Positions 41,420 to 55,110 of a stretch of DNA of 64,000 bases are shown one piece after another. The notes beneath the pieces were generated by a model, which was not told the origin of the DNA, ran no database searches, and saw only the letters and a program-made list of their open reading frames with translations. Within the stretch, counting starts at the first letter, position 1. Every line of letters starts with the position of its first letter. This stretch comes from Desulfosudis oleivorans (GTDB lineage: Bacteria > Desulfobacterota > Desulfobacteria > Desulfobacterales > SURF-7): assembly GCA_020723305.1 (NCBI GenBank), contig DYJC01000010.1, positions 1-64,000 on the forward strand, written 5' to 3'. Made by a program: the position numbers and the translations under genes.

Positions 41420-41551
41420 GATTTTTGTATTCTCCCTTTTTTTTAAAAAGGATAAGGAATCAGTACTTGAATAAATTGGGCATTTTTACTATTCCATACA
41501 ATATCTGGCATTTTTTTCAATAAGGAATTGAACAGGAGAAAAGGAGTGGTC

Positions 41552-42313
41552 ATGCGCTTCCGGCCATGTATTGATATTCATCAGGGTGTTGTCAAACAGA
41601 TCGTCGGCTCCACCCTGACCGACAGTTCAGACCAAAGCCCCACAACCAATTTTCAGGCTGAAAAACCGGCTTCATGGTTTGCATCCCTGTATCGGCAGGA
41701 TCACCTGACCGGAGGACACGTGATTCAGCTTGGTCCCGGCAATGAAAAAGCAGCCAAGGAAGCGCTTCAGGCCTGGCCGGGCGGAATGCAGATCGGCGGC
41801 GGAATTCATCTGGACAATGCCCGGCAATGGATTGAAGCTGGAGCCTCTGCGGTTATCGTAACATCATGGGTATTTCATGATGGAACCGTTGATATGGAGC
41901 GGCTGAAAAAGCTTACAGATTCCATTGGAAAAAATCGGCTGGTACTGGACTTGAGCTGCCGGAAAAAGGAAAACTACTATGTCATTGTTACCGACCGGTG
42001 GCAGACATTTACACGGGAAGTCATTGATTTCAGTCTGCTGGACAGGCTATCCCGATACTGTGATGAGTATCTGATCCATGCGGTGGATGTGGAAGGAAAA
42101 TGCCGTGGAATTGAAATCCCCCTGGTCGAGCTGCTTGGAAAGTGGAGAGGGATTCCCATCACCTATGCAGGCGGAATTCATTCAATGGATGACATCAATC
42201 AAATTCAAGAACTTGGAAAAGGACACATCGATTTTACGGTCGGAAGCGCCCTGGATATTTTCGGCGGTACCCAATTGAGATATCAGGACCTGGCCAGGCA
42301 GTTCGGCTGCTGA
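41552..42313 (+). CDS. hisA: HisA-type isomerase, eukaryote-like form
   Basis: The ATG at 41552 follows AAGGAG, and the protein starts MRFRPCIDIHQGVVKQIVGSTL, which resembles the plant and yeast HIS6 form of phosphoribosylformimino-AICAR-ribotide isomerase rather than the standard bacterial HisA. YAGGIHSMDDI and HIDFTVGSALDIFGG near the C-terminus form the phosphate sites of the barrel. It would act in histidine synthesis. No other his gene is near. At 253 residues the length is normal. Confidence 0.8.
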   Translation: MRFRPCIDIHQGVVKQIVGSTLTDSSDQSPTTNFQAEKPASWFASLYRQDHLTGGHVIQLGPGNEKAAKEALQAWPGGMQIGGGIHLDNARQWIEAGASAVIVTSWVFHDGTVDMERLKKLTDSIGKNRLVLDLSCRKKENYYVIVTDRWQTFTREVIDFSLLDRLSRYCDEYLIHAVDVEGKCRGIEIPLVELLGKWRGIPITYAGGIHSMDDINQIQELGKGHIDFTVGSALDIFGGTQLRYQDLARQFGC

Positions 42314-43220: not shown

Positions 43221-44513
43221 ATGGATACAACAATCTTCCGTAATGCTTACGATGCTATCGTTGTCGGATCCGGCCCCGGGGGGGCAACCGTTGCAAAAGA
43301 ACTAGCAGAAAAAAATAAAAAAGTCCTCATATTGGAATGGGGTGACAACTGGCGCGTAAAAGGGACAAGCTGGCAGACCGCCATTACAGCAGGAATTCCC
43401 GGCAGAAGCCTTCTGGTAACCAATAAAGCACTTGCCATGGTCAGGGGAATCACTACCGGCGGCAGTTCTGTCTACTTCTACGCAACCGCGTTCGAACCGC
43501 CTGTTGAGATGTTAAAATCCTACGGCCTGGATATCAGCGAAGAAATCAAAGAGATTCGGAAAGAACTTCCTACCGAGCCGCTGAAAGACGAACTGATTGG
43601 CCCAGGAGCAAAACGGATCATGCAGAGCGCCAGAGAATTGGGTTATGACTGGAACAAACTTCCCAAGTTTGTTTATCAGGACAAATGCAAGACAGGCTGC
43701 TGGCGCTGCGATTACGGATGTCCTTATGGCGCCAAATGGAACGCCAGAAACTATGTTGAGCAGGCGCTTGAAAACGGTTCAACGCTGATTAACCGAGCAA
43801 AAGTGCAGAAGGTGATTGTCGAGAACAATATTGCTGTAGGCGTTGAATATAAAAAATGGGGATCTACCTTTCAGGCTTTTGCACCCAAAATCATTCTTTC
43901 AGCAGGCGGAATCGGGTCACCTGTCATCTTGCGAAAAAGCGGAATATACAGAGCAGGGTATGACTACTTCTATGATCCTTTGATTGCGGTAATGGGAACG
44001 GTTAAGGATCTGAAAGGCGGAAAGGAATTTCCCATGGCAACCGGGATTCATATGGAAGAAGAAGGATATGTCATGACGGACATGACCGTGCCCCGAACCC
44101 TCTACATGTTGTTTGCCGCCGAGGTTTTCCGTTTTCACAAACTATTTTCACATGGTAACACTCTGCAGATCATGATCAAGGCAAAGGACAGTTTGGGTGG
44201 TCGGGTAACCTATAATGAAGGTGTCCGGAAAAGCCTGTCAAAAGATGACCAGGCAAAACTGTTAAAAGGATATGAGCGGGCAAAAAAGATTCTGAAAAAT
44301 GCCGGAGCCAAAGATATTTTTAAAAGCTGGTATATAGCAGCTCATCCCGGCGGAACCGTCAAGGTTGGCGACATCTTGGATTCCAACCTGAAAACCAAAT
44401 ATGAAAACCTCTATGTCTGCGACTGTTCGGTCATACCGGAGGCATGGGGACTGCCGCCTACCTTTACGCTCATAGCCCTTGGAAAAAGACTGGCAAAACA
44501 TATTGCGGCATAA
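43221..44513 (+). CDS. GMC-type FAD oxidoreductase with four-cysteine insert
   Basis: The N-terminal AIVVGSGPGGATVAKELAE binds FAD. A cluster CKTGCWRCDYGCPYGAK near residue 155-170 places four cysteines in a pattern of the Cx3Cx2Cx3C kind, as in GMC relatives linked to anaerobic redox chains, and may hold an Fe-S centre. The C-terminal HPGGTVKVG and PEAWGLPPTFT match the active-site His and FAD region of the GMC family. AGGAGGCAATACC precedes the start. As the first gene of the operon it probably oxidises an alcohol or accepts electrons for the dehydratase chemistry. The substrate is unknown. Confidence 0.85.
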   Translation: MDTTIFRNAYDAIVVGSGPGGATVAKELAEKNKKVLILEWGDNWRVKGTSWQTAITAGIPGRSLLVTNKALAMVRGITTGGSSVYFYATAFEPPVEMLKSYGLDISEEIKEIRKELPTEPLKDELIGPGAKRIMQSARELGYDWNKLPKFVYQDKCKTGCWRCDYGCPYGAKWNARNYVEQALENGSTLINRAKVQKVIVENNIAVGVEYKKWGSTFQAFAPKIILSAGGIGSPVILRKSGIYRAGYDYFYDPLIAVMGTVKDLKGGKEFPMATGIHMEEEGYVMTDMTVPRTLYMLFAAEVFRFHKLFSHGNTLQIMIKAKDSLGGRVTYNEGVRKSLSKDDQAKLLKGYERAKKILKNAGAKDIFKSWYIAAHPGGTVKVGDILDSNLKTKYENLYVCDCSVIPEAWGLPPTFTLIALGKRLAKHIAA

Positions 44514-44574: not shown

Positions 44575-46068
44575 ATGCATACCGAACAACAGCAACCACT
44601 TCCCAGACAAGGGATTCACAAAAAGAAAAATTCCGACAATAATGGATATGATCCAATCGCCCTGCTCCTCTCCGAACTGATTCAAACAAGAGAGATCCGG
44701 ACAATTATCGGCCATGCCGTGCCGGAAGTACTCAATGCGTGGGCAGATGACAATTTTGCAAAAAAGATCACAACCCGTGCCATTGGAAAAAATATCAAAA
44801 ACGGATTGTCCAGACCCGAGGATGTTCTGGGTCAGGGTGAGCTGGCCAAACTGTTTCGAAATCCTGATATCATTCAAAATATGGCCGACCAGTTCCCCAA
44901 AATGCTGGATGTGCTTTTTGATCTTGCAGATGAGATCGGAAAGGGGATGGAAAGCCTTCCTTCAACAGAAAAACAGAAAGTTCTTGGCAAATTGATTTCC
45001 GGAATATTTTCCGGAAGAACCGGCAAAGTGATTACGACCTGGGCAAGAGTGATATCCGGTACACAATCGGGTTCATCCAATTTTTTAAAAGAGAACATAG
45101 AACCCGGTGTCACAAAATGGATTGAGAATACTGATTTTGGTGAGCTCAAGGAACTCCTCAATTATGCGTCCGATATCTCGGGTGAAACCATAAAGATGAT
45201 CAATGATGCAATCTGGAAGTACCCGGCAAAAGTCGTTCTCCTGGTCTCATTTTTGCCGACCATTGCCAATATTCTGGTCAAAACAATCAATGAGTGTGTC
45301 GGCAGATTCAACAACCTTGCTCCGGACCTGGTTGCCGATGTTGTTCTTTCCTGCTTGAGGGATATTGACGCCAAAAACCTCGGGCAGACAGTTAATGAGC
45401 TTGCCGAACTGATTCGAAAACTGGATACCGGGAGCTCACTGATCGGTGATTCAGGCTCATCCGGCCTGAACCGGGATATATCGGGTTTTCTGGATGATTT
45501 TTCATCTGCCGTTCAGATTGAAAAACTTTTCCGGGCCCGCGAAGGACTTGCTTCCGGGAAAGAGACTGTTTCCGCCAAGATCTTTAAAATCTTGAAAGAC
45601 AACCCCCAAATCATACTTGAGTCTATTGGCCGTTCACAGTTTCTCTACAATCCTGCGATCAAAAACATAAGTCGTAAAGCCGCCTTGGTTTGCGATCTTC
45701 CGGAAAAAGAGACATCCGATGCCTTCTCAAAAACCCTTTCGCAATTGGATTTTGCTGAAATTGCCGAGATTGTCAATTTAACCTCTCTATTGATCAATCG
45801 AATACGAAAAAATAACCGCAAACTGCTGCCTTCCATGATTTCCCAGGTAGTAGACAGTATTGATCTGTATGAAGTTGAGGATGCGGTCAGCGGAATCATA
45901 GGCGACATCGGCCAGAGCCTTAAACCACTTGGACGAGTCGTTCTTCCCCATTTGGTTACACTTGCATGTGACTGGCTGTCGCCGGATGAAAACAAGGAAG
46001 AACCAGCAATTGAAAATGCAAGAGAAGCGATTTGCGCCTTGTTGCAACCAAAGGAGGTTCAACTATGA
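44575..46068 (+). CDS. Unrecognised helical protein of the dehydratase operon
   Basis: A 497-residue soluble protein preceded by AAGGGGGATGATTTCCA. It consists mostly of amphipathic helices with recurring patterns such as LAELIRKL, FLDDFSSAV and LLNYASDIS, suggesting an alpha-solenoid or helical bundle. No motif, cysteine cluster or nucleotide-binding loop was seen. It lies between the GMC oxidoreductase and the first dehydratase subunit, and its stop overlaps that subunit's start, so it is likely needed in similar amount. A scaffold or specificity role is inferred. Confidence 0.75.
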   Translation: MHTEQQQPLPRQGIHKKKNSDNNGYDPIALLLSELIQTREIRTIIGHAVPEVLNAWADDNFAKKITTRAIGKNIKNGLSRPEDVLGQGELAKLFRNPDIIQNMADQFPKMLDVLFDLADEIGKGMESLPSTEKQKVLGKLISGIFSGRTGKVITTWARVISGTQSGSSNFLKENIEPGVTKWIENTDFGELKELLNYASDISGETIKMINDAIWKYPAKVVLLVSFLPTIANILVKTINECVGRFNNLAPDLVADVVLSCLRDIDAKNLGQTVNELAELIRKLDTGSSLIGDSGSSGLNRDISGFLDDFSSAVQIEKLFRAREGLASGKETVSAKIFKILKDNPQIILESIGRSQFLYNPAIKNISRKAALVCDLPEKETSDAFSKTLSQLDFAEIAEIVNLTSLLINRIRKNNRKLLPSMISQVVDSIDLYEVEDAVSGIIGDIGQSLKPLGRVVLPHLVTLACDWLSPDENKEEPAIENAREAICALLQPKEVQL

Positions 46069-47252
46069 TGGAAATATTTCAAGAAGCCGCATCCGGAATT
46101 ACCAACCGGTATATTACAGACTGGGTGAACAGCGGTAAAAAGATCGTCGGGTATACCTGTTCGTTCATGCCCCCTGAAATCTTTCATGCCGCAGGCATAC
46201 TGCCTTACCGGATACGGGGAATCAACACAGAAAGCATGGAAATCGGGGATACCTATTACGGGCCATATGTCTGCACGTTTCCAAAATGTCTGCTCCAGCT
46301 CGCAGGAGAAGGAAAATTTAATTTTTTAAGCGGTGCAGTCATTTCTACCGGATGTGATGCCATGCGCAGACTGGATGAGTGCTGGCGTAAAACCGGAGAG
46401 GATTATCATGGCTCCATACCCGGTTTTTTTCACTACTTTGATGTTCCCCATAAAACCGACCCTCATGCAATGAAATGGTTTGAAAATGAAATCAGAAAAT
46501 TAATTCTCAATGTGGAAAAGTATTATAACGTGAAAATCAAGGAAGACAGCCTGAGGGAATCGATTTCCCTGTATAATCATGGAAGGACCCTACTCTGGGA
46601 GGTTGAAAAATTAAGGGCTCATGAAAATCCGGGGGTTTCGGGAACAGATGCTTTTTCAATAGCCGTTTCTGGAACAGTCATGCCGCGGGAAGCTTTTAAT
46701 GAACAGCTTGAACAACTTCTGGCTGATTTGCCGAAACAAAAATCAAGTTCGAAAAAAAGCGGCAAACAAAATAAAAATGGAAACAAACGAATTATGGTGG
46801 CCGGCAGCATCAATGACGACATCGAACTTTTCCGGCTGATTGAAAACGCAGGCTCGAACGTTGTTGCAGACAATATATGTTTTGGAATCCGGAGTGAAGC
46901 AGATCAGGTGAATATGGAGGATGATCCAATATCCGCTCTTACCAAACACTATCTTTCCAACTCTGTCTGTCCGCGAATGTTCGGTGCCTACAAACAGCGT
47001 TTTGACCTTTTACAGACAAAAATTGAAAGAGCAGGCGTTGAAGGAATCATTTTACAGAACATTCGGTTCTGCGATCTGCATGGATCTGAAAACGGGCTCT
47101 TTGAACGGGATTTTGAAAAACTGGGCATCCCTTGTCTGAGGCTGGAAAGGGAATACGGACCGCTGACCGAAACCGGAAGGATGAAAATGCGCATTGAGGC
47201 ATTTCTGGAACGGATGGAGGTAAAACAAACTGATTCAGGAGGCAAATCATGA
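46065..47252 (+). CDS. 2-hydroxyacyl-CoA dehydratase / benzoyl-CoA reductase subunit (pair 1, smaller)
   Basis: A HgdB/BcrC-family subunit. Cysteines expected to hold a 4Fe-4S centre lie in GYTCSFMPPE (near residue 30), ISTGCDAMRR (about 97) and IRFCDLHGSE (about 340). A longer frame opens at 46032, but the ATG at 46065 follows AAAGGAGGTTC and overlaps the previous stop by four bases. Family members reduce or dehydrate acyl-CoA with an ATP-activated low-potential electron. A homologous partner, at 51708, is found in the same operon. Actual reaction unknown. Confidence 0.85.
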   Translation: MMEIFQEAASGITNRYITDWVNSGKKIVGYTCSFMPPEIFHAAGILPYRIRGINTESMEIGDTYYGPYVCTFPKCLLQLAGEGKFNFLSGAVISTGCDAMRRLDECWRKTGEDYHGSIPGFFHYFDVPHKTDPHAMKWFENEIRKLILNVEKYYNVKIKEDSLRESISLYNHGRTLLWEVEKLRAHENPGVSGTDAFSIAVSGTVMPREAFNEQLEQLLADLPKQKSSSKKSGKQNKNGNKRIMVAGSINDDIELFRLIENAGSNVVADNICFGIRSEADQVNMEDDPISALTKHYLSNSVCPRMFGAYKQRFDLLQTKIERAGVEGIILQNIRFCDLHGSENGLFERDFEKLGIPCLRLEREYGPLTETGRMKMRIEAFLERMEVKQTDSGGKS

Positions 47253-48649
47253 GACCTGAAGTATATGAATACAATTTTGACTGGATGCTCTGGCGCACGC
47301 TGGAAGCTGCATCAAAAGTCGGAGATGGCTTTGACAAGGAATTCAAACAGATGTTGCCCTACATTCCCTATTTCAGCGGGATTGTAGAACCCTTTATCAA
47401 CCTGGGTGACCCGGGTAGTGCTTTCTTCAAAATGATCAGCGAATATCTGAAAAACATTGTAACCGCCCATGAGCAAGGCAAAAAAATTGTCATGACCACG
47501 TTCTGTTTTTCGCCAACCATCTTTTATGCAATGGATATTGTGCCGGTCACACTCGAGGCTCTCACGGTTCTGGCATCGGTCATGTGGAAACGCGGAGCCA
47601 CCGAGTACATGGACTTCTGCGTAGAGCTGGGTTTTACCGAAACCTCCTGCTCTTCCCAAAGGGGATGCCTTGGCGCCTATCTGGCCGGAATGGGTGAAGA
47701 AATCGATATGCTTGTGATCAATACAGCGGGGATCTGCGATACCAATGCAAATGCCTTTTCTTTTGCTAAAACCTTTCTGGACAAACCATTCTACTCCCTG
47801 AATTATCCGGCAAGCCTCAACGACCCGGAAGTGAACCAATACCATCGTGATGATTTCAAAGCATTAATCAAGTTTCTGGAGGAACAGACCGGAAAAAAAC
47901 TGGACCATGACCGGCTTGGAAAGGTGCTGGATGAGGTAGCCAAACAGGAAGCCATTGTAGGCGAAATGGAAGAATTGCAGCGGCTTGTACCCAGTCCACT
48001 GCCGGTTACCTACAATTTTCTGATATACGGCGGACGTTTTTTCTTTGCAGGAATGCCCGAATACACTGTAATTCTGGAGAAAATGGCAACCGTTGTCCGA
48101 AAAAATGCAACGCAGGGCCGATCCGGCATCTCCTCCGGTAGAGAAAAACTTCGGGCTTTCATGTTTTATATTGATCATTATGCCCTGAATCTAAATCTGT
48201 GGAACTGGTTCGACAAACGGGAGATCAACCATATCGGAAGCATTCTGAGCCGTTCTTTCAAGGATGATTCTCCCTATATAAAAGGCATGGAGGATGTTGC
48301 CTACAACATCGATTCAACCAATCTCGACACCATGATCGACAGTATCGCGATGATCAACTCCCGAATGCCCATGGTCCGATCCATCCGTGGGCCATATGAC
48401 CGTCCGAACATGTGGCTGGAGGAATCTCTGGCTCTTGCCAAGATGTATAAAGCGGACTGTTTGATCTATAATGGAACCCCCGGGTGCAGAAACACCTGGT
48501 CCAACATTAAACTGATCGCAAGGGATCTGGAAAAGGCTGGATATCCAACACATATCATGTATGGGGATGCTTTTGATGACCGGGTTGAATCCTGGGAGGC
48601 AACAGCTGCGCGACTGGATGAATTTATAAATGTAAGGGGGTTGTTATGA
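47249..48649 (+). CDS. 2-hydroxyacyl-CoA dehydratase / benzoyl-CoA reductase subunit (pair 1, larger)
   Basis: A 466-residue member of the same family, start overlapping the previous stop as ATGA. Candidate cluster ligands are TTFCFSPTIF (about residue 83), TSCSSQRGCLGAYLAG (about 132-139) and GTPGCRNTW (about 413). It forms the probable heterodimer partner of the 46065 product. The C-terminal TPGCRNTWSN is like the active-site end of reductase subunits. Reaction unknown. Confidence 0.85.
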   Translation: MRPEVYEYNFDWMLWRTLEAASKVGDGFDKEFKQMLPYIPYFSGIVEPFINLGDPGSAFFKMISEYLKNIVTAHEQGKKIVMTTFCFSPTIFYAMDIVPVTLEALTVLASVMWKRGATEYMDFCVELGFTETSCSSQRGCLGAYLAGMGEEIDMLVINTAGICDTNANAFSFAKTFLDKPFYSLNYPASLNDPEVNQYHRDDFKALIKFLEEQTGKKLDHDRLGKVLDEVAKQEAIVGEMEELQRLVPSPLPVTYNFLIYGGRFFFAGMPEYTVILEKMATVVRKNATQGRSGISSGREKLRAFMFYIDHYALNLNLWNWFDKREINHIGSILSRSFKDDSPYIKGMEDVAYNIDSTNLDTMIDSIAMINSRMPMVRSIRGPYDRPNMWLEESLALAKMYKADCLIYNGTPGCRNTWSNIKLIARDLEKAGYPTHIMYGDAFDDRVESWEATAARLDEFINVRGLL

Positions 48650-49437
48650 GTATCGTTGCAGGATGCGATGTCGGTTCTTTGACCGCCAAAGCAGTAATCA
48701 TGGAAAAAGGCAGAATCATCAGCTCAGCACTTCTCCGATCCAAAACAAACCCGCAGCTTTCCGCAGAAGCCGTCATGCAGGAAGCATTATCAAAAGCCGG
48801 TCTTTCCATGGATGATATCCGATACTGTATTGGTACGGGATATGGAAGAAAAAACATTTCCTTTGTGGACAAGGATATTTCCGAAATCGCCTGCCACGGG
48901 AGAGGCGCGCGCTGGCTCAATCCCGGCGCAAGGACCATCATTGATATCGGGGGTCAGGATTGCAAGGCAGTCCGGCTCGATAAAGACGGCAATGTGGTAA
49001 AATTTGTTGCCAATGATAAGTGTGCATCCGGAACCGGCCGTTTTCTGGAAGTAATGGCTCGTCTTCTCGACATACCCATCGAGGAGATGGGAAGCCTGAG
49101 TTCCAAATCAACCGCACCCATTACCCTTTCCTCAACCTGCACTGTCTGGGCACAGGCGGATATTGTCAAATATATCAATTCCGGACACAAAATAGAAGAT
49201 ATCGGTGCCGGGGTGAACAGCGCCATGGCCAAAAGAGCGGCCATACTGGCAAACAGTGTCGGCATTGAACAGGATGTCTGCATGACCGGAGGGGTTGCCA
49301 AAAATGAGGGCGTGGTTCAAGACCTGGAAAAGCTTTTGGGTAAAAACATCAAAAAGATGAGAAAGGCTGATCCCCAGATTGCCGGGGCCATTGGTGCAGC
49401 CATTTTTGCAATGGAAAGTTTAAACGGGAGGTCCTAA
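48646..49437 (+). CDS. BadF/BadG/HgdC-type activator ATPase 1
   Basis: A 263-residue ASKHA-fold ATPase. GCDVGSLTAK binds phosphate, DIGGQDCKAV supplies the second phosphate loop, and CMTGGVAKNEGV the adenosine site. The Cys residues in NDKCASGTGR and SSTCTVWAQ are the pair that holds a 4Fe-4S cluster between two protomers. Activators of this type use ATP to push one electron into the dehydratase or reductase cluster. Overlap with the upstream subunit gene is four bases. Confidence 0.92.
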   Translation: MSIVAGCDVGSLTAKAVIMEKGRIISSALLRSKTNPQLSAEAVMQEALSKAGLSMDDIRYCIGTGYGRKNISFVDKDISEIACHGRGARWLNPGARTIIDIGGQDCKAVRLDKDGNVVKFVANDKCASGTGRFLEVMARLLDIPIEEMGSLSSKSTAPITLSSTCTVWAQADIVKYINSGHKIEDIGAGVNSAMAKRAAILANSVGIEQDVCMTGGVAKNEGVVQDLEKLLGKNIKKMRKADPQIAGAIGAAIFAMESLNGRS

Positions 49438-49438
49438 A

Positions 49439-50221
49439 ATGATCGTAGCTGGATGTGATATTGGTTCTCTTTCGGCAAAGGCTGTGATAATGGAAGGCAA
49501 TACTGTTATCGGAAAAGGTGTGGTCAGAGCCGGGACAAATCCGGTTGATTCAGCCAAAGAAGCAATGGCCATTGCACTTGGCGATTCCGGACTCTCCATG
49601 GAAAAAATCAAAAAAATCGTTGCCACCGGTTATGGAAAGGAGATGATTCCTTTTGCAAATGCGGTTGAATCTGAAATTGTCTGCCATGCAAGGGGCGCAT
49701 TCTGGAATCTGCAAACCGCCAGAACGGTAATCGATATCGGAGGGCAGGATGCAAAAGCCATTCGCATGGATAAAAACGGAAACGTTGTCCGCTATCTTTA
49801 TAATGACAAATGCGCTTCCGGAACCGGCCGCTTTTTAGAGGTCATGGCCGATGCTCTGGATGTTAGCCTGGATGAGATGGGGAAAATCTCATCCCAATCA
49901 AAAGAAAAACTTGTCATCTCAAACCAGTGCGTTATTTTTGCCGAGACGGAAGTGGTTTCACTGGTCAATGAGGGACGGGCTGTTCCGGATATCATCAAGG
50001 CGCTTCATACTGCCATGGCAGGACGTGTGGCTTCCATGGTGCTCAGCATCGGAACAGAAGATGACATTATCATGACCGGAGGAGTTGCCAAAAATTCAGG
50101 GTTGTTTGCTGCGCTTTCAACCTCCTTGAAAAAACCGGTTCATTCCATGAAAAACCTCGACCCTCAAATCACCGGTGCCCTTGGTGCCGCGCTGATTGCT
50201 TCCCGGATGAGTGAACAATAA
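49439..50221 (+). CDS. BadF/BadG/HgdC-type activator ATPase 2
   Basis: A second 260-residue activator with GCDIGSLSAK, DIGGQDAKAI, NDKCASGTGR, SNQCVIFAETE and MTGGVAKNSG. It is roughly half identical to its neighbour, separated by one base. Two adjacent activators may form a heterodimer like the two ATPase subunits of class I benzoyl-CoA reductase, or each may serve a different dehydratase pair. Confidence 0.92.
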   Translation: MIVAGCDIGSLSAKAVIMEGNTVIGKGVVRAGTNPVDSAKEAMAIALGDSGLSMEKIKKIVATGYGKEMIPFANAVESEIVCHARGAFWNLQTARTVIDIGGQDAKAIRMDKNGNVVRYLYNDKCASGTGRFLEVMADALDVSLDEMGKISSQSKEKLVISNQCVIFAETEVVSLVNEGRAVPDIIKALHTAMAGRVASMVLSIGTEDDIIMTGGVAKNSGLFAALSTSLKKPVHSMKNLDPQITGALGAALIASRMSEQ

Positions 50222-50957
50222 TATGCAGCTCTTTCATGGTATTATTGAAGAAGTCAGAACCTTCATGCAAACACCAAGGACATCTTTTCCCATCCGGGAA
50301 TATCCGTCCTTTCCGGAAATTTCATGGCCGGCCGCAGGCCCAAGAGATATCATCCTCCAGTCCGATACCGGCGTGGAACTGGGAAATCCCAAGGATCAAT
50401 CGGTTTCCTTCCTGGTCTGGACAAATGACCTGTCTCGTGTATGTGATGAAAAAATTTCGCTTCTGGGCCAGGATATTGGTGAGGCTGATTCAAACCGCCT
50501 TCCCTTTGGAAGGGTGGTTCTGATCGGCGGCACAGGATTTGACGAAGAAAACTGCTATACCCGATTCCGAGAAATGGATCTTTCCCGGTATGATATTTCC
50601 CTGAAAGGATATATGATGCGGGCTGTGTCCCAGTATATGAGGGAGTGGAGCAGAATCAGCCGGGAAGCAGTTAAAAGCGGATTTTCCCTGCCCATTCTCG
50701 GAAAGGCGATGATTCAGAAGTTAAAATCCCTGGATTATGTGGATTGCGTTGAAATATTGTTTGTAACCTCATCCAATCCGGATGTTCTTGAATTAAAAAA
50801 AACCGGTGACCGGTTTATTCAACTGATCAATGCCATGACCAGAATAGCGGAGGATCATGATTTTGATTGCGAGAGCTGTGAGTTTCAGCCGGTCTGCGAT
50901 GAGGCGGAAGACCTGCGCAAAATGCATAAAGCCCTGAAGGAAAAAAGATCATCATGA
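50211..50957 (+). CDS. Acetyl-CoA synthase-like (CdhC/AcsB) stand-alone domain
   Basis: A 248-residue protein whose centre aligns with the middle domain of acetyl-CoA synthase (CdhC/AcsB): GYM, then WSRISREAVKSG, LGKAMIQKLKS and VEILFVTSS, in the family order. The C-terminus has CESCEFQPVC, shorter than the four-cysteine A-cluster motif of the synthase, so the Ni-Fe-S centre is probably different or absent. The neighbouring CooC-type ATPase is a nickel-site maturation protein in CO dehydrogenase, which supports the relation. Full enzyme activity is unlikely. A metal-binding or methyl/acyl-handling role is inferred. Confidence 0.65.
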   Translation: MNNNMQLFHGIIEEVRTFMQTPRTSFPIREYPSFPEISWPAAGPRDIILQSDTGVELGNPKDQSVSFLVWTNDLSRVCDEKISLLGQDIGEADSNRLPFGRVVLIGGTGFDEENCYTRFREMDLSRYDISLKGYMMRAVSQYMREWSRISREAVKSGFSLPILGKAMIQKLKSLDYVDCVEILFVTSSNPDVLELKKTGDRFIQLINAMTRIAEDHDFDCESCEFQPVCDEAEDLRKMHKALKEKRSS

Positions 50958-51715
50958 CAGAACAACCGAAAATCATTGCGGTCTGCGGCAAAGGCGGGGT
51001 AGGCAAAACCAGCATCAGCGCGCTCCTGACCATACTGCTCTCAGAAAACAAATCCAAAAAAGTTCTGGCTATTGATGCAGATCCGGCAGTCGGGTTGTCG
51101 CTTCCCCTGGGCATTTCGGTCCGAAAAACCGTGGATCATATCCGGAATGACCTGATTCGATCCATTGAAAATGGTGAAAAATCCGGAAAAGAAGCATTGC
51201 TCAAAAGACTGGATTATGAGCTGTTTGAGGCATTAGAGGAAAAGGAAAACCTCGCCTTTCTCGCCGTTGGAAGACCTGAGGGAGATGGATGCTACTGTCA
51301 GGTCAACAGCCTGCTGAGAGAGATCATTCAGAATGTCGCCGGCAGATTTGATTTTGTGGTCATAGATGGTGAAGCCGGGATTGAACAGATCAACAGAAGG
51401 GTTATGGAAATGGTCACCCATCTTTTTCTGGTAACCGATTCCTCCATCAAAGGTCAGAATGTAGCCACCATTATAGAAAAAGTCGCCCGAAACAAGATCC
51501 GGTTCCAGAAAGCCGGAATCTTTTACAATCGTATTCAGGATGAAGAGGAAGTATTGCAGCTCCTGAAACGAAATGAGCTGCCTGTGATCGGGTGGATGCC
51601 TGAAAATCAGGTGATCCGAAAATATGATAGAGAAGGAAAAAGCTTTTTCTCTTTTCAGGACAGCAGCATCATGCTGCCTCTGAAAAAAGCGGTTCAAGGA
51701 TTTATCAATGAATAG
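50954..51715 (+). CDS. CooC-type P-loop ATPase
   Basis: The N-terminal VCGKGGVGKTS is a deviant Walker A of the MinD/CooC class, and AIDADPAVGLSLPLG and FVVIDGEAGIEQINRRV are the second and third motifs. CooC inserts nickel in CO dehydrogenase. Such ATPases also mature other metallo-centres. Overlap by four bases with the ACS-like gene and by eight bases with the next dehydratase subunit places it inside the operon, so it probably matures one of their clusters. Confidence 0.85.
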   Translation: MTEQPKIIAVCGKGGVGKTSISALLTILLSENKSKKVLAIDADPAVGLSLPLGISVRKTVDHIRNDLIRSIENGEKSGKEALLKRLDYELFEALEEKENLAFLAVGRPEGDGCYCQVNSLLREIIQNVAGRFDFVVIDGEAGIEQINRRVMEMVTHLFLVTDSSIKGQNVATIIEKVARNKIRFQKAGIFYNRIQDEEEVLQLLKRNELPVIGWMPENQVIRKYDREGKSFFSFQDSSIMLPLKKAVQGFINE

Positions 51716-52844
51716 ACCCATGCCTACCCACACTCATTTTTTTGAAGACCTCCTGAATGACCCGATGAACTATCTGGTCGAGGCCTCTATGGATAAAGGG
51801 AAAATTCCAATCGGATACACTTGCAGTTATGTTCCGGAAGTGCTTTTATCCGTTGATCCGCTGATACCGATCCGGATTCGTGCTCCCGGTGTTTTGAGCA
51901 CGGAAATCGCGGATATCTATCTTTCAAGTGTGATCTGTTCCTATACCCGCAGTGTGCTTGAAATGGCCATGGATGATCAGTACGGCTTTCTGAAAGGCTG
52001 GGTTTTTGCCGCAAGCTGTGATCATATGAGACGGCTCTATGACAACATGAAGTATCTGAACCAGGCTGATTTCATTCATATCCTCGATGTCCCTCACCGC
52101 CATGGTAACGATTCTTTTTCCTGGTATGCGGATGAACTGAAAATGCTTCTGGACAACATATCTTCACATCACGAGATCCGGTTCGATCAAGCTGCCCTAT
52201 CCAGAGCTATACAGGATCATAATGACTTTTCAGCCTTGCTCACCTCCATCGGTGATATGAGGAAACCAAAAAATCCGCCTCTGTCCGGAACAGAATTCCA
52301 GGCCATCACACTGTCTTCTCTTGTGGCTCCCAGGCAATCTATTTTGCCAAAGATTCAGGAGTTCAAAGAATCCCTTTCCAGGCAGGAAGGAATTTCAGAT
52401 TACCGGGCAAGGCTTCTCATTGTCGGTGGCCAGATGGACAACCTCGGTTATATCCGTACAATTGAATCCACCGGAGGACTGGTTGTTGCCGATCATCTCT
52501 GCACCGGCTCCATTCCCCGACTGGCGCCCATCCGCATGGATGAAGACCCGGTTACGGCGATTGCAGCCCACTACCTGAATCGGATTTCCTGCCCCAGAAT
52601 GATGGAAGCCTTTGATTCCCGGGTTGATGACATTATGAAAAGTATTGAGGAGTATCGAGTTGATGGTGTGATTATCGAATTTATCAAATTCTGCGATACG
52701 TGGGGTATTGAGTCCAGCCTGCTGGCCAACACCCTGCGAAAAAAAGGAGTTCCGGTTTTATGCCTTGAACGGGAGTACCAGATGACAGGAGAGGGACAGA
52801 TTAAAACCCGCATCCAGGCATTTATCGAAAGCATGGGGAAGTAA
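51708..52844 (+). CDS. 2-hydroxyacyl-CoA dehydratase / benzoyl-CoA reductase subunit (pair 2, smaller)
   Basis: A 378-residue HgdB-family subunit, homologous to the 46065 product. GYTCSYVPEV near residue 39, FAASCDHMRR about 103 and IKFCDTWG about 328 provide candidate Cys ligands. Its partner is the 52853 product. Having a second pair in one operon, with one activator after it (54283), suggests two related reactions or an electron-relay arrangement. Confidence 0.85.
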   Translation: MNRPMPTHTHFFEDLLNDPMNYLVEASMDKGKIPIGYTCSYVPEVLLSVDPLIPIRIRAPGVLSTEIADIYLSSVICSYTRSVLEMAMDDQYGFLKGWVFAASCDHMRRLYDNMKYLNQADFIHILDVPHRHGNDSFSWYADELKMLLDNISSHHEIRFDQAALSRAIQDHNDFSALLTSIGDMRKPKNPPLSGTEFQAITLSSLVAPRQSILPKIQEFKESLSRQEGISDYRARLLIVGGQMDNLGYIRTIESTGGLVVADHLCTGSIPRLAPIRMDEDPVTAIAAHYLNRISCPRMMEAFDSRVDDIMKSIEEYRVDGVIIEFIKFCDTWGIESSLLANTLRKKGVPVLCLEREYQMTGEGQIKTRIQAFIESMGK

Positions 52845-52852
52845 TCCAAATC

Positions 52853-54271
52853 ATGAAAAACAAAATTTTATATTACCTTGTATATACCCAATACTGGCTC
52901 ATTACATGGATGAAAATCATCCCGTTTATCCTGCGGCACGGACTGTATGACACTGTCCGAGATTTACGGCAATATCCCTGGCTGTGGATCATGCTCAAGG
53001 TCAACCGTCTTCTTGGAAAATTCGGAAAAGGACGTTCGCTCCGCTACCAGCAGGCCGTGTCTATCCTGGTTTCCGGAATCGTCTCCGGTGTGACCGACAT
53101 GCTCGGAAATATTTTTTTCAAACCAGACCGGCTGATCATTCATGAAGACATGATTCCCCCGGAAATCTTCAATGCCATGGGATTGTCCACCTTCATGGCA
53201 GAGCTTAACGGTATCATGCTGCCCATGATCGAACCGCATGCCATGGAACAGTATATTGATGAATCCGAAAACCAGGGGATTCCGCCGGACATCTGCAGCC
53301 TTCCCAAAAGCACCATGGGGCTGTTTCTCAAAGGACAAACCCCTCCGGCAAAGGCCATGGTTACCTCCAACCTTCCCTGTGACGCCGGCATGAACTCCTA
53401 TGCCCTGATTGAACAGAAACTGAAACTGCCTACATTCCGGCTGGACATCCCTTATCATTTCAAGGATGAAAGAGCCCTGAACTACTTTGTGGATGAACTG
53501 AAACGGATGATCACCTGGCTGGAAAAGAAAACGCCCGGAAAAATGGATTGGGATCTGCTTCGTGAAATCTGTGAAGAACGGAACCGCATGGTGGAGCTGG
53601 AAATGGAACTCTGGGACCTTGCCCGGATCCGCCCGGCGCCCATTGCCGGAGAAGCGATCTGGTTATCCCATATGTGGTTTTTCAATCTGTTTCCCGGAAC
53701 CAGACAGGCCACAGTGATCTTCCAAAAAATCCTTGAACTCGGAAAACAGAATCTGGCTCAAGGCATATCCGCAGTAAAAAACGAAAAGTTCCGTGCTCTG
53801 TTATGGAACCCGCCACTGACCCACTTTATTGACCTGTTCAACTGGGCAGAACACGCCTATGGCGTTTCCCTGATCATGGACAGCATGACTTTCAACCGGC
53901 TGCCGTTTATTGACACAGCAACCAATGATACCATGCTGCAAGGGCTGGCACTCAATATCATGAACGGCCCCATGGCCCGTCATACACGGGGACCGGCTGA
54001 AAACTATATGGATGACATTTTTTATATTCACAAACAGTTTGATCTGGACATGCTGTGGGTTGCCGGCCATATCGGCTGTAAAAACACACAGGCATTGAAC
54101 GGCATCCTGCGGGAAAAATGCCGGGAAGCCGGGCTTCCGCTTCTGATCATTGATTATGATCTATCTGACCCGCGGATCGTTCCACGGGAAGGTATTATCA
54201 ATCAGATCGATCACTTTATGGAAAACATCATGAAAGCAAAACGACTGGACCCGAAATCCAAAGCAGCATAG
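52853..54271 (+). CDS. 2-hydroxyacyl-CoA dehydratase / benzoyl-CoA reductase subunit (pair 2, larger)
   Basis: A 472-residue subunit of the same family with TSNLPCDAGMNSY (about residue 180) and GHIGCKNTQ (about 405) as likely cluster Cys. It has fewer cysteines than its counterpart at 47249: the latter's FCFSP segment appears as HAMEQYIDE-type sequence without Cys, so the cluster environment may differ. Starts eight bases after the upstream gene. Confidence 0.82.
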   Translation: MKNKILYYLVYTQYWLITWMKIIPFILRHGLYDTVRDLRQYPWLWIMLKVNRLLGKFGKGRSLRYQQAVSILVSGIVSGVTDMLGNIFFKPDRLIIHEDMIPPEIFNAMGLSTFMAELNGIMLPMIEPHAMEQYIDESENQGIPPDICSLPKSTMGLFLKGQTPPAKAMVTSNLPCDAGMNSYALIEQKLKLPTFRLDIPYHFKDERALNYFVDELKRMITWLEKKTPGKMDWDLLREICEERNRMVELEMELWDLARIRPAPIAGEAIWLSHMWFFNLFPGTRQATVIFQKILELGKQNLAQGISAVKNEKFRALLWNPPLTHFIDLFNWAEHAYGVSLIMDSMTFNRLPFIDTATNDTMLQGLALNIMNGPMARHTRGPAENYMDDIFYIHKQFDLDMLWVAGHIGCKNTQALNGILREKCREAGLPLLIIDYDLSDPRIVPREGIINQIDHFMENIMKAKRLDPKSKAA

Positions 54272-54282
54272 GAGATAAACAG

Positions 54283-55110
54283 GTGCCCTCATCAAATGGC
54301 AGATATTATGCAGGATGTGACATTGGATCCACTACAGGAAAAGCAGTGATTCTGGATGAAACCCGTATTGTGTCGTCTGCGATCATACCGGCTGAAATTG
54401 ACCCGGAACAGACCGCCCGCAAGGTGCTTTCCAAAGCCTGCGAAAAGATAAACGGTCTTAACGGAACCGATGACTTCTCTTATCTTGTGGGAACCGGGTA
54501 CGGCCGGAATGAGGTTCCCTTTGCCAACGATAATGTATCGGAAATCAGCTGCCATGCGCTCGGGGTTCATGCCTGTGATCCTTCCATCAAAACCATAGTT
54601 GATATCGGCGGGCAGGATGTGAAAGGAATTTCCATTAATGAAGACGGTTCGATCCTGGAATTTGCCATGAACGATAAATGCGCTGCCGGAACCGGCCGGT
54701 TTCTCGAAATGATGAGCAAAATATTCCGGATGGACCTCGAGGCTTTTTCCAATCTTTCCCTGGAGGCCAAACACACTATTCCGGTTACATCCCAATGCAG
54801 TGTTTTTGCGGAAACAGAGGTGATCAGCCTGCTTTCCAAAAGAAAACCGCCCTCTGAAATTGCTGCCGGAATCCAGGCATCGGTTGCCAAAAGAAGCTTT
54901 ACGCTGCTGAAACGGGTGGGGATCAGACCCAAGCTTACGGTTACCGGCGGATGTTCTAAAAACAAGGGTCTTCTGGTCGCCCTGCAAAAAAGGCTTCGAA
55001 TGGATATCACACCCCTGGCTGAGGATCCTCAACTTATGGGCGCTCTGGGAGCTGCCATTATGGCCAGGAGAAAAGCCGGATCTATCAGCCAATTAACAAT
55101 TAACCGTTGA
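54283..55110 (+). CDS. BadF/BadG/HgdC-type activator ATPase 3
   Basis: The GTG start follows AGGAGATAAACAG. The protein has GCDIGSTTGKAV, DIGGQDVKGI, NDKCAAGTGR, TSQCSVFAETE and VTGGCSKNKG, again with both cluster cysteines. It is the third activator in the operon and, from position, probably serves the second dehydratase pair. Confidence 0.92.
   Translation: MPSSNGRYYAGCDIGSTTGKAVILDETRIVSSAIIPAEIDPEQTARKVLSKACEKINGLNGTDDFSYLVGTGYGRNEVPFANDNVSEISCHALGVHACDPSIKTIVDIGGQDVKGISINEDGSILEFAMNDKCAAGTGRFLEMMSKIFRMDLEAFSNLSLEAKHTIPVTSQCSVFAETEVISLLSKRKPPSEIAAGIQASVAKRSFTLLKRVGIRPKLTVTGGCSKNKGLLVALQKRLRMDITPLAEDPQLMGALGAAIMARRKAGSISQLTINR

Follow-up and report, generated by a model that had tools for sequence, protein, structure and literature searches.

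The DNA analyzed here (the window), a stretch of 64,000 nucleotides from the anaerobic bacterium Desulfosudis oleivorans, carries on the forward strand an operon for enzymes of the benzoyl-CoA-reductase/2-hydroxyacyl-CoA-dehydratase (BCR/HAD) family. HGDa (46065..47252), a BzdN/DCCP-like subunit, and HGDb (47249..48649), a BzdO/HadB-like catalytic subunit, are followed by BCR1 (48646..49437), a BadF/BcrA-type ATP-dependent activator, and BCR2 (49439..50221), a second activator subunit. The next two genes encode a CdhC-like protein of 244 aa (50223..50957) and a CooC-like ATPase of 253 aa (50954..51715), and after them come HGDc (51708..52844), a second double-cubane subunit, HGDd (52853..54271), a second catalytic subunit, and BCR3 (54283..55110), a third activator. 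The order HGDa-HGDb-BCR1-BCR2-CdhC-CooC-HGDc-HGDd-BCR3 is kept from Desulfobacteraceae to Spirochaetota. Both the CdhC-like and the CooC-like reading frames lie where the first-pass annotation had placed them.

HGDa and HGDc each have exactly six invariant cysteines, like the double-cubane subunits BzdN and DCCP, and in HGDa these are the six of the [8Fe-9S] double cubane (PMC11971306). HGDb and HGDd have three cysteines each, like BzdO (PMC11971306); those of HGDb (134, 163 and 413) are invariant, as are Cys 148 and 176 of HGDd, the third, Cys 409, being present in 94% of sequences. All three activators score above the TIGR00241 cut-off and retain the two cluster cysteines (126 and 165 in BCR1, 125 and 164 in BCR2, 133 and 172 in BCR3). 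With complete cysteine sets in both the HGD subunits and the activators, the loci appear, from their sequences, to encode entire ATP-dependent systems of low-potential electron transfer acting on acyl-CoA substrates. Related loci also carry acyl-CoA dehydrogenases, a flavodoxin-ferredoxin protein and 4Fe-4S proteins. The earlier description of the locus as a dehydratase operon holds insofar as it is a BCR/HAD operon; with its double-cubane and three-cysteine subunits and a heterodimeric activator, it resembles a reductase of the class I benzoyl-CoA reductase type more closely than a plain dehydratase. Pairs of six-cysteine and three-cysteine subunits, and ATP-dependent activators with two cluster cysteines, are shared with class I benzoyl-CoA reductase of the Bzd type (BzdNO/BzdPQ), 2-hydroxyacyl-CoA dehydratases and DCCP. 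Unlike these systems, the operon combines two catalytic pairs with three activators, has divergent catalytic subunits, and adds the CdhC-like protein, the CooC-like ATPase and X497.

X497 (44575..46068, forward strand) is all-helical and belongs to no known protein family; its gene is conserved immediately upstream of HGDa in over 20 related loci. It has no conserved cysteine and gave no match in Pfam, PHROGs or among PDB folds; Foldseek returned nothing below an E-value of 0.001 for its model, which is of moderate quality (pLDDT 77). Further upstream lies a GMC-type oxidoreductase (43221-44513) with a C-x3-C-x2-C-x3-C motif (CKTGCWRCDYGC). The motif is kept in most homologs neighboring CdhC-like/BCR loci and was not found in four Spirochaetota copies (L037, L197, L198 and L199); the protein may be an electron-transfer partner. 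A HisA gene (41528-42313), adjoining a gene for enoyl-CoA hydratase, scores above the cut-off of the eukaryotic-type HisA model TIGR02129 (369 bits), in a bacterium.

The CdhC-like gene had been assigned 248 residues. A GTG start giving that length does exist at 50211 but is probably wrong: the ATG at 50223, which yields 244 residues, is located one base past the stop of BCR2 and matches the MxLF start common to homologs, and is therefore preferred. The protein scores 49.3 bits (E-value = 6.4e-13) against the Pfam CdhC family PF03598, about double the curated cut-off of 24, and falls far under the full-length cut-offs of the NCBIfam models of acetyl-CoA synthase (ACS). When PDB was searched with phmmer, all matches with E < 0.1 were ACS chains (best E-value 2.6e-8), and profile-profile alignment with ACS using hhalign gave a probability of 99.4 and an E-value of 5e-21. 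Judged by these sequence comparisons, the CdhC match is far above chance.

We then compared structures. The AlphaFold model, built from 50 sequences of the window and related loci, has a pLDDT of 92.3 and a pTM of 0.89. In Foldseek its 23 top matches, that is, every match with E < 0.001, are ACS. VIA-align superimposes residues 30-210 onto residues 316-495 of Moorella thermoacetica ACS (1oao_C) with Z of 19.3 and an rmsd of 2.3 Å over 172 residues, compared with Z of at most 3.8 for unrelated chains. The proposed alignment with the middle domain of CdhC/AcsB is thus borne out by the PF03598 match, hhalign and the comparison of predicted folds, and a fold unrelated to ACS, which would have refuted the first-pass idea, was not what the model showed. 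According to the model, the CdhC-like protein is a stand-alone ACS middle-domain fold. The likeness extends over this fold and the start of the following cysteine motif, and includes core residues common to both families (G82, D84, G129, M131, W142, R144, G153 and G160). It differs from ACS in being a separate protein of 244 aa, devoid of the N-terminal domain, the C-terminal domain and the nickel ligands, and in that its genes are unlinked to CODH and the corrinoid Fe-S protein (CoFeSP).

The fold, spanning residues ~30-210, is followed by a C-x2-C-x5-C motif (C216, C219 and C225), and the protein terminates 19 residues past it. The shortened motif noticed at first reading (CESCEFQPVC, instead of the A-cluster) is real and invariant in 60 of 60 short homologs; relatives lacking the cysteine cluster, which would have spoken against the idea, did not turn up. 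In ACS the A-cluster is not in the middle domain, and the CdhC-like motif lies where the next ACS domain begins: the profile-profile alignment extends over the opening portion of the A-cluster motif and places C-x2-C-x5-C opposite C-x2-C-x8-C of ACS, the pairing of individual cysteines being approximate. In the alignment with ACS, the CdhC-like protein has no counterpart of the fourth cubane cysteine, the Cys-Gly-Cys nickel ligands or the remainder of the A-cluster domain. The three motif cysteines are among 11 invariant columns in an alignment of 50 CdhC-like sequences. A further cysteine occurs within 12 residues upstream of the motif in 22 of the 60 short sequences, most of which belong to a second group. 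Group A, which includes the window protein, has no invariant cysteine or histidine besides the three motif cysteines, so a full cluster would need a non-cysteine ligand or one from a partner.

Of the 395 genomes sampled from the phylum, 30 contain short CdhC-like homologs; among 247 Spirochaetota genomes, 20 do, as counted from the listed short open frames. In the phylogenetic tree a single branch (SH-aLRT 100) separates the short proteins from ACS. The genome of the window has both ACS and CODH. However, 14 genomes from two families, 94-100% complete, have the CdhC-like/CooC-like pair and neither full ACS nor CODH, which indicates that the pair is independent of Wood-Ljungdahl enzymes. Recruitment of the domain for another job within the operon, as the first-pass annotation had suggested, accordingly finds support in a conserved family that also occurs in genomes without ACS/CODH, and the ACS-domain fold has probably been put to new use. 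A search for plasmid-borne copies found none. Separately, a divergent CdhC-like subgroup with four cysteines has no BCR/HAD or CooC genes nearby (L080, 9811-10611; L081, 2024-2824; L077, 1947-2747); its neighbors include genes for a class III CoA-transferase, for an ACP-synthase-like/ChsH2-type protein and for TRAP solute-binding proteins.

The CooC-like gene overlaps the CdhC-like gene by four bases (ATGA at 50954), confirming the overlap already reported. Its product is closest to Carboxydothermus hydrogenoformans CooC1 (3kje, E-value = 3e-16) and, like the nickel-insertion ATPases CooC/AcsF, belongs to the MinD-type family, with a GKGGVGKT Walker A motif and a CxC metal motif (CYC; C113 and C115) kept in all linked copies. 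In contrast to CooC/AcsF, the linked copies are tied to BCR/HAD genes, are found where CODH and ACS are absent, and form one clade (SH-aLRT 98) apart from copies near ACS genes or RACo. The possibility that the ATPase serves the genome's own CODH/ACS was rejected for the 14 genomes which have neither. Three other CooC-like ATPases (L187, 9603-10397; L196, 9259-10059; L186, 9463-10323) have scores intermediate between those of the reductase-linked clade and those of ordinary CooC, and no BCR/HAD or ACS genes were recognized near them.

We quantified the linkage using 47 placements, defined as CdhC-like genes flanked on each side by more than 2 kb of sequence (the contig L036/L118 enters the count twice). 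A BCR/HAD gene lies within 3 kb in 42 of the placements and a CooC gene in 38, leaving nine without CooC; in L080 and L081 neither partner is near. HGDb orthologs occur in 25 of the 395 genomes. The CdhC-like gene is present in 24 of these 25 (Fisher p = 9e-32, shared ancestry ignored); in the remaining one (L205) the contig breaks off within BCR2, short of where the CdhC-like gene would be expected.

In the explanation we favor, which has a little less than an even chance of being right, the CdhC-like protein would serve as an Fe-S (possibly heterometal) partner subunit in an ATP-dependent acyl-CoA reductase of the BCR/HAD type and would receive its cluster or metal from the CooC-like ATPase. 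It rests on the predicted fold, the invariant cysteines, the CooC motifs, operon linkage, co-occurrence and the 14 genomes without ACS/CODH, whereas cluster binding, the metal, contact with the reductase, loading by CooC, the substrate and catalysis are inferred. The middle domain of ACS contacts CoA and CoFeSP (PMC12289521), suggesting that the ACS-like fold would dock onto a CoA-ester enzyme, with C-x2-C-x5-C holding an Fe-S or possibly heterometal cluster. The CooC-like ATPase would be a shared maturation factor using ATP to load this cluster or metal. CdhC-like genes outnumber CooC genes of the linked clade in the draft genomes G001 (3:1) and G158 (2:1), and in one operon of a draft genome (L198) a single CooC accompanies two CdhC-like genes, which fits an enzyme-specific component served by a shared maturase. 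Counting against the partner-subunit reading are the mere three invariant cysteines of group A, CooC genes that stand with BCR/HAD genes where a CdhC-like gene is lacking (L188 and L193), the nine placements without CooC within 3 kb, the two loci without either partner, and BzdNO, whose double cubane forms in E. coli with no maturase dedicated to it (PMC11971306).

The main rival, possible but on balance improbable, is that the CdhC-like protein is an assembly scaffold, a carrier cooperating with the CooC-like ATPase to build the double cubane or active-site cluster of the HGD subunits, or to insert such a cluster, or else a heterometal, into them. A transient, labile cluster would suit a three-cysteine motif. 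In addition, CooC of the linked type adjoins BCR/HAD pairs without a CdhC-like gene in L188, L189, L192 and L193, where profile searches detected no divergent CdhC-like gene either; L188 and L193 in particular suggest that the client of CooC may be the reductase itself. A gene for NifS-type cysteine desulfurase directly adjoins the pair in L119, which agrees with the favored reading as well, and NifU/NifS genes adjoin the CooC gene in L191. Together with the CooC-only loci, these neighbors fit a maturation role for the reductase. However, several CdhC-like genes may be present per genome, most beside their own BCR/HAD genes, which is unusual for a shared scaffold, and the lack of need for a dedicated maturase in the related BzdNO speaks against this role as well. 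We consider it unlikely that a large branch of BCR/HAD reductases has a new heterometal cluster (e.g. containing nickel), inserted by the dedicated CooC-type ATPase and carried or delivered by the recruited ACS domain.

Rather less probable is a CoA-handling subunit, in which the fold would bind either CoA itself or the CoA moiety of the substrate, the cysteine motif would be a structural zinc or cluster site, and CooC would act elsewhere. This would agree with the CoA interaction of the ACS middle domain, with the conservation of W142 and R144 in both families, and with the handling of CoA esters in most neighborhoods, including BCR-free loci with class III CoA-transferase. Yet the catalytic dimers of BCR/HAD enzymes themselves bind the CoA ester (PMC11971306), and the gene overlap and long shared history with CooC would be left unexplained.

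Very doubtful is an ACS-type nickel site, i.e. a reduced A-cluster formed by the pair for C1 or acyl chemistry. CooC-type ATPases do deliver nickel in CODH maturation (PMC6006190), CxC is intact, and in the alignment the CdhC-like motif falls opposite the beginning of the cubane motif of the A-cluster. Nevertheless, the lack of the nickel ligands, the fourth cubane cysteine, the whole C-terminal domain and any other conserved cysteine or histidine argues against it, as do the 14 genomes without CODH, which have no such source of CO; a Ni-Ni site of the ACS type is ruled out by the missing ligands. Finally, a decaying, functionless ACS fragment, or an annotation error, is suggested by nothing but a match to part of a longer enzyme and can be dismissed given a family conserved across phyla, with invariant residues, separated from ACS by one branch and present where ACS is absent.

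No description of the association of CdhC-like, CooC and BCR/HAD genes was found in the open-licence literature, to which the search was confined; the parts are known, while the way they are combined and the existence of an ACS-domain family independent of ACS appear, within that literature, to be new. A domain thought to be tied to one pathway would lead a second existence of its own, with a separate ATPase, among enzymes which drive extreme low-potential reductions. The finding points to an unrecognized cofactor or maturation step in BCR/HAD enzymes and, for organisms that lack CODH, suggests what CooC-like proteins may have as their client. It would also correct database names that label CdhC-like proteins as subunits of ACS or CODH and can mislead predictions of the Wood-Ljungdahl pathway.
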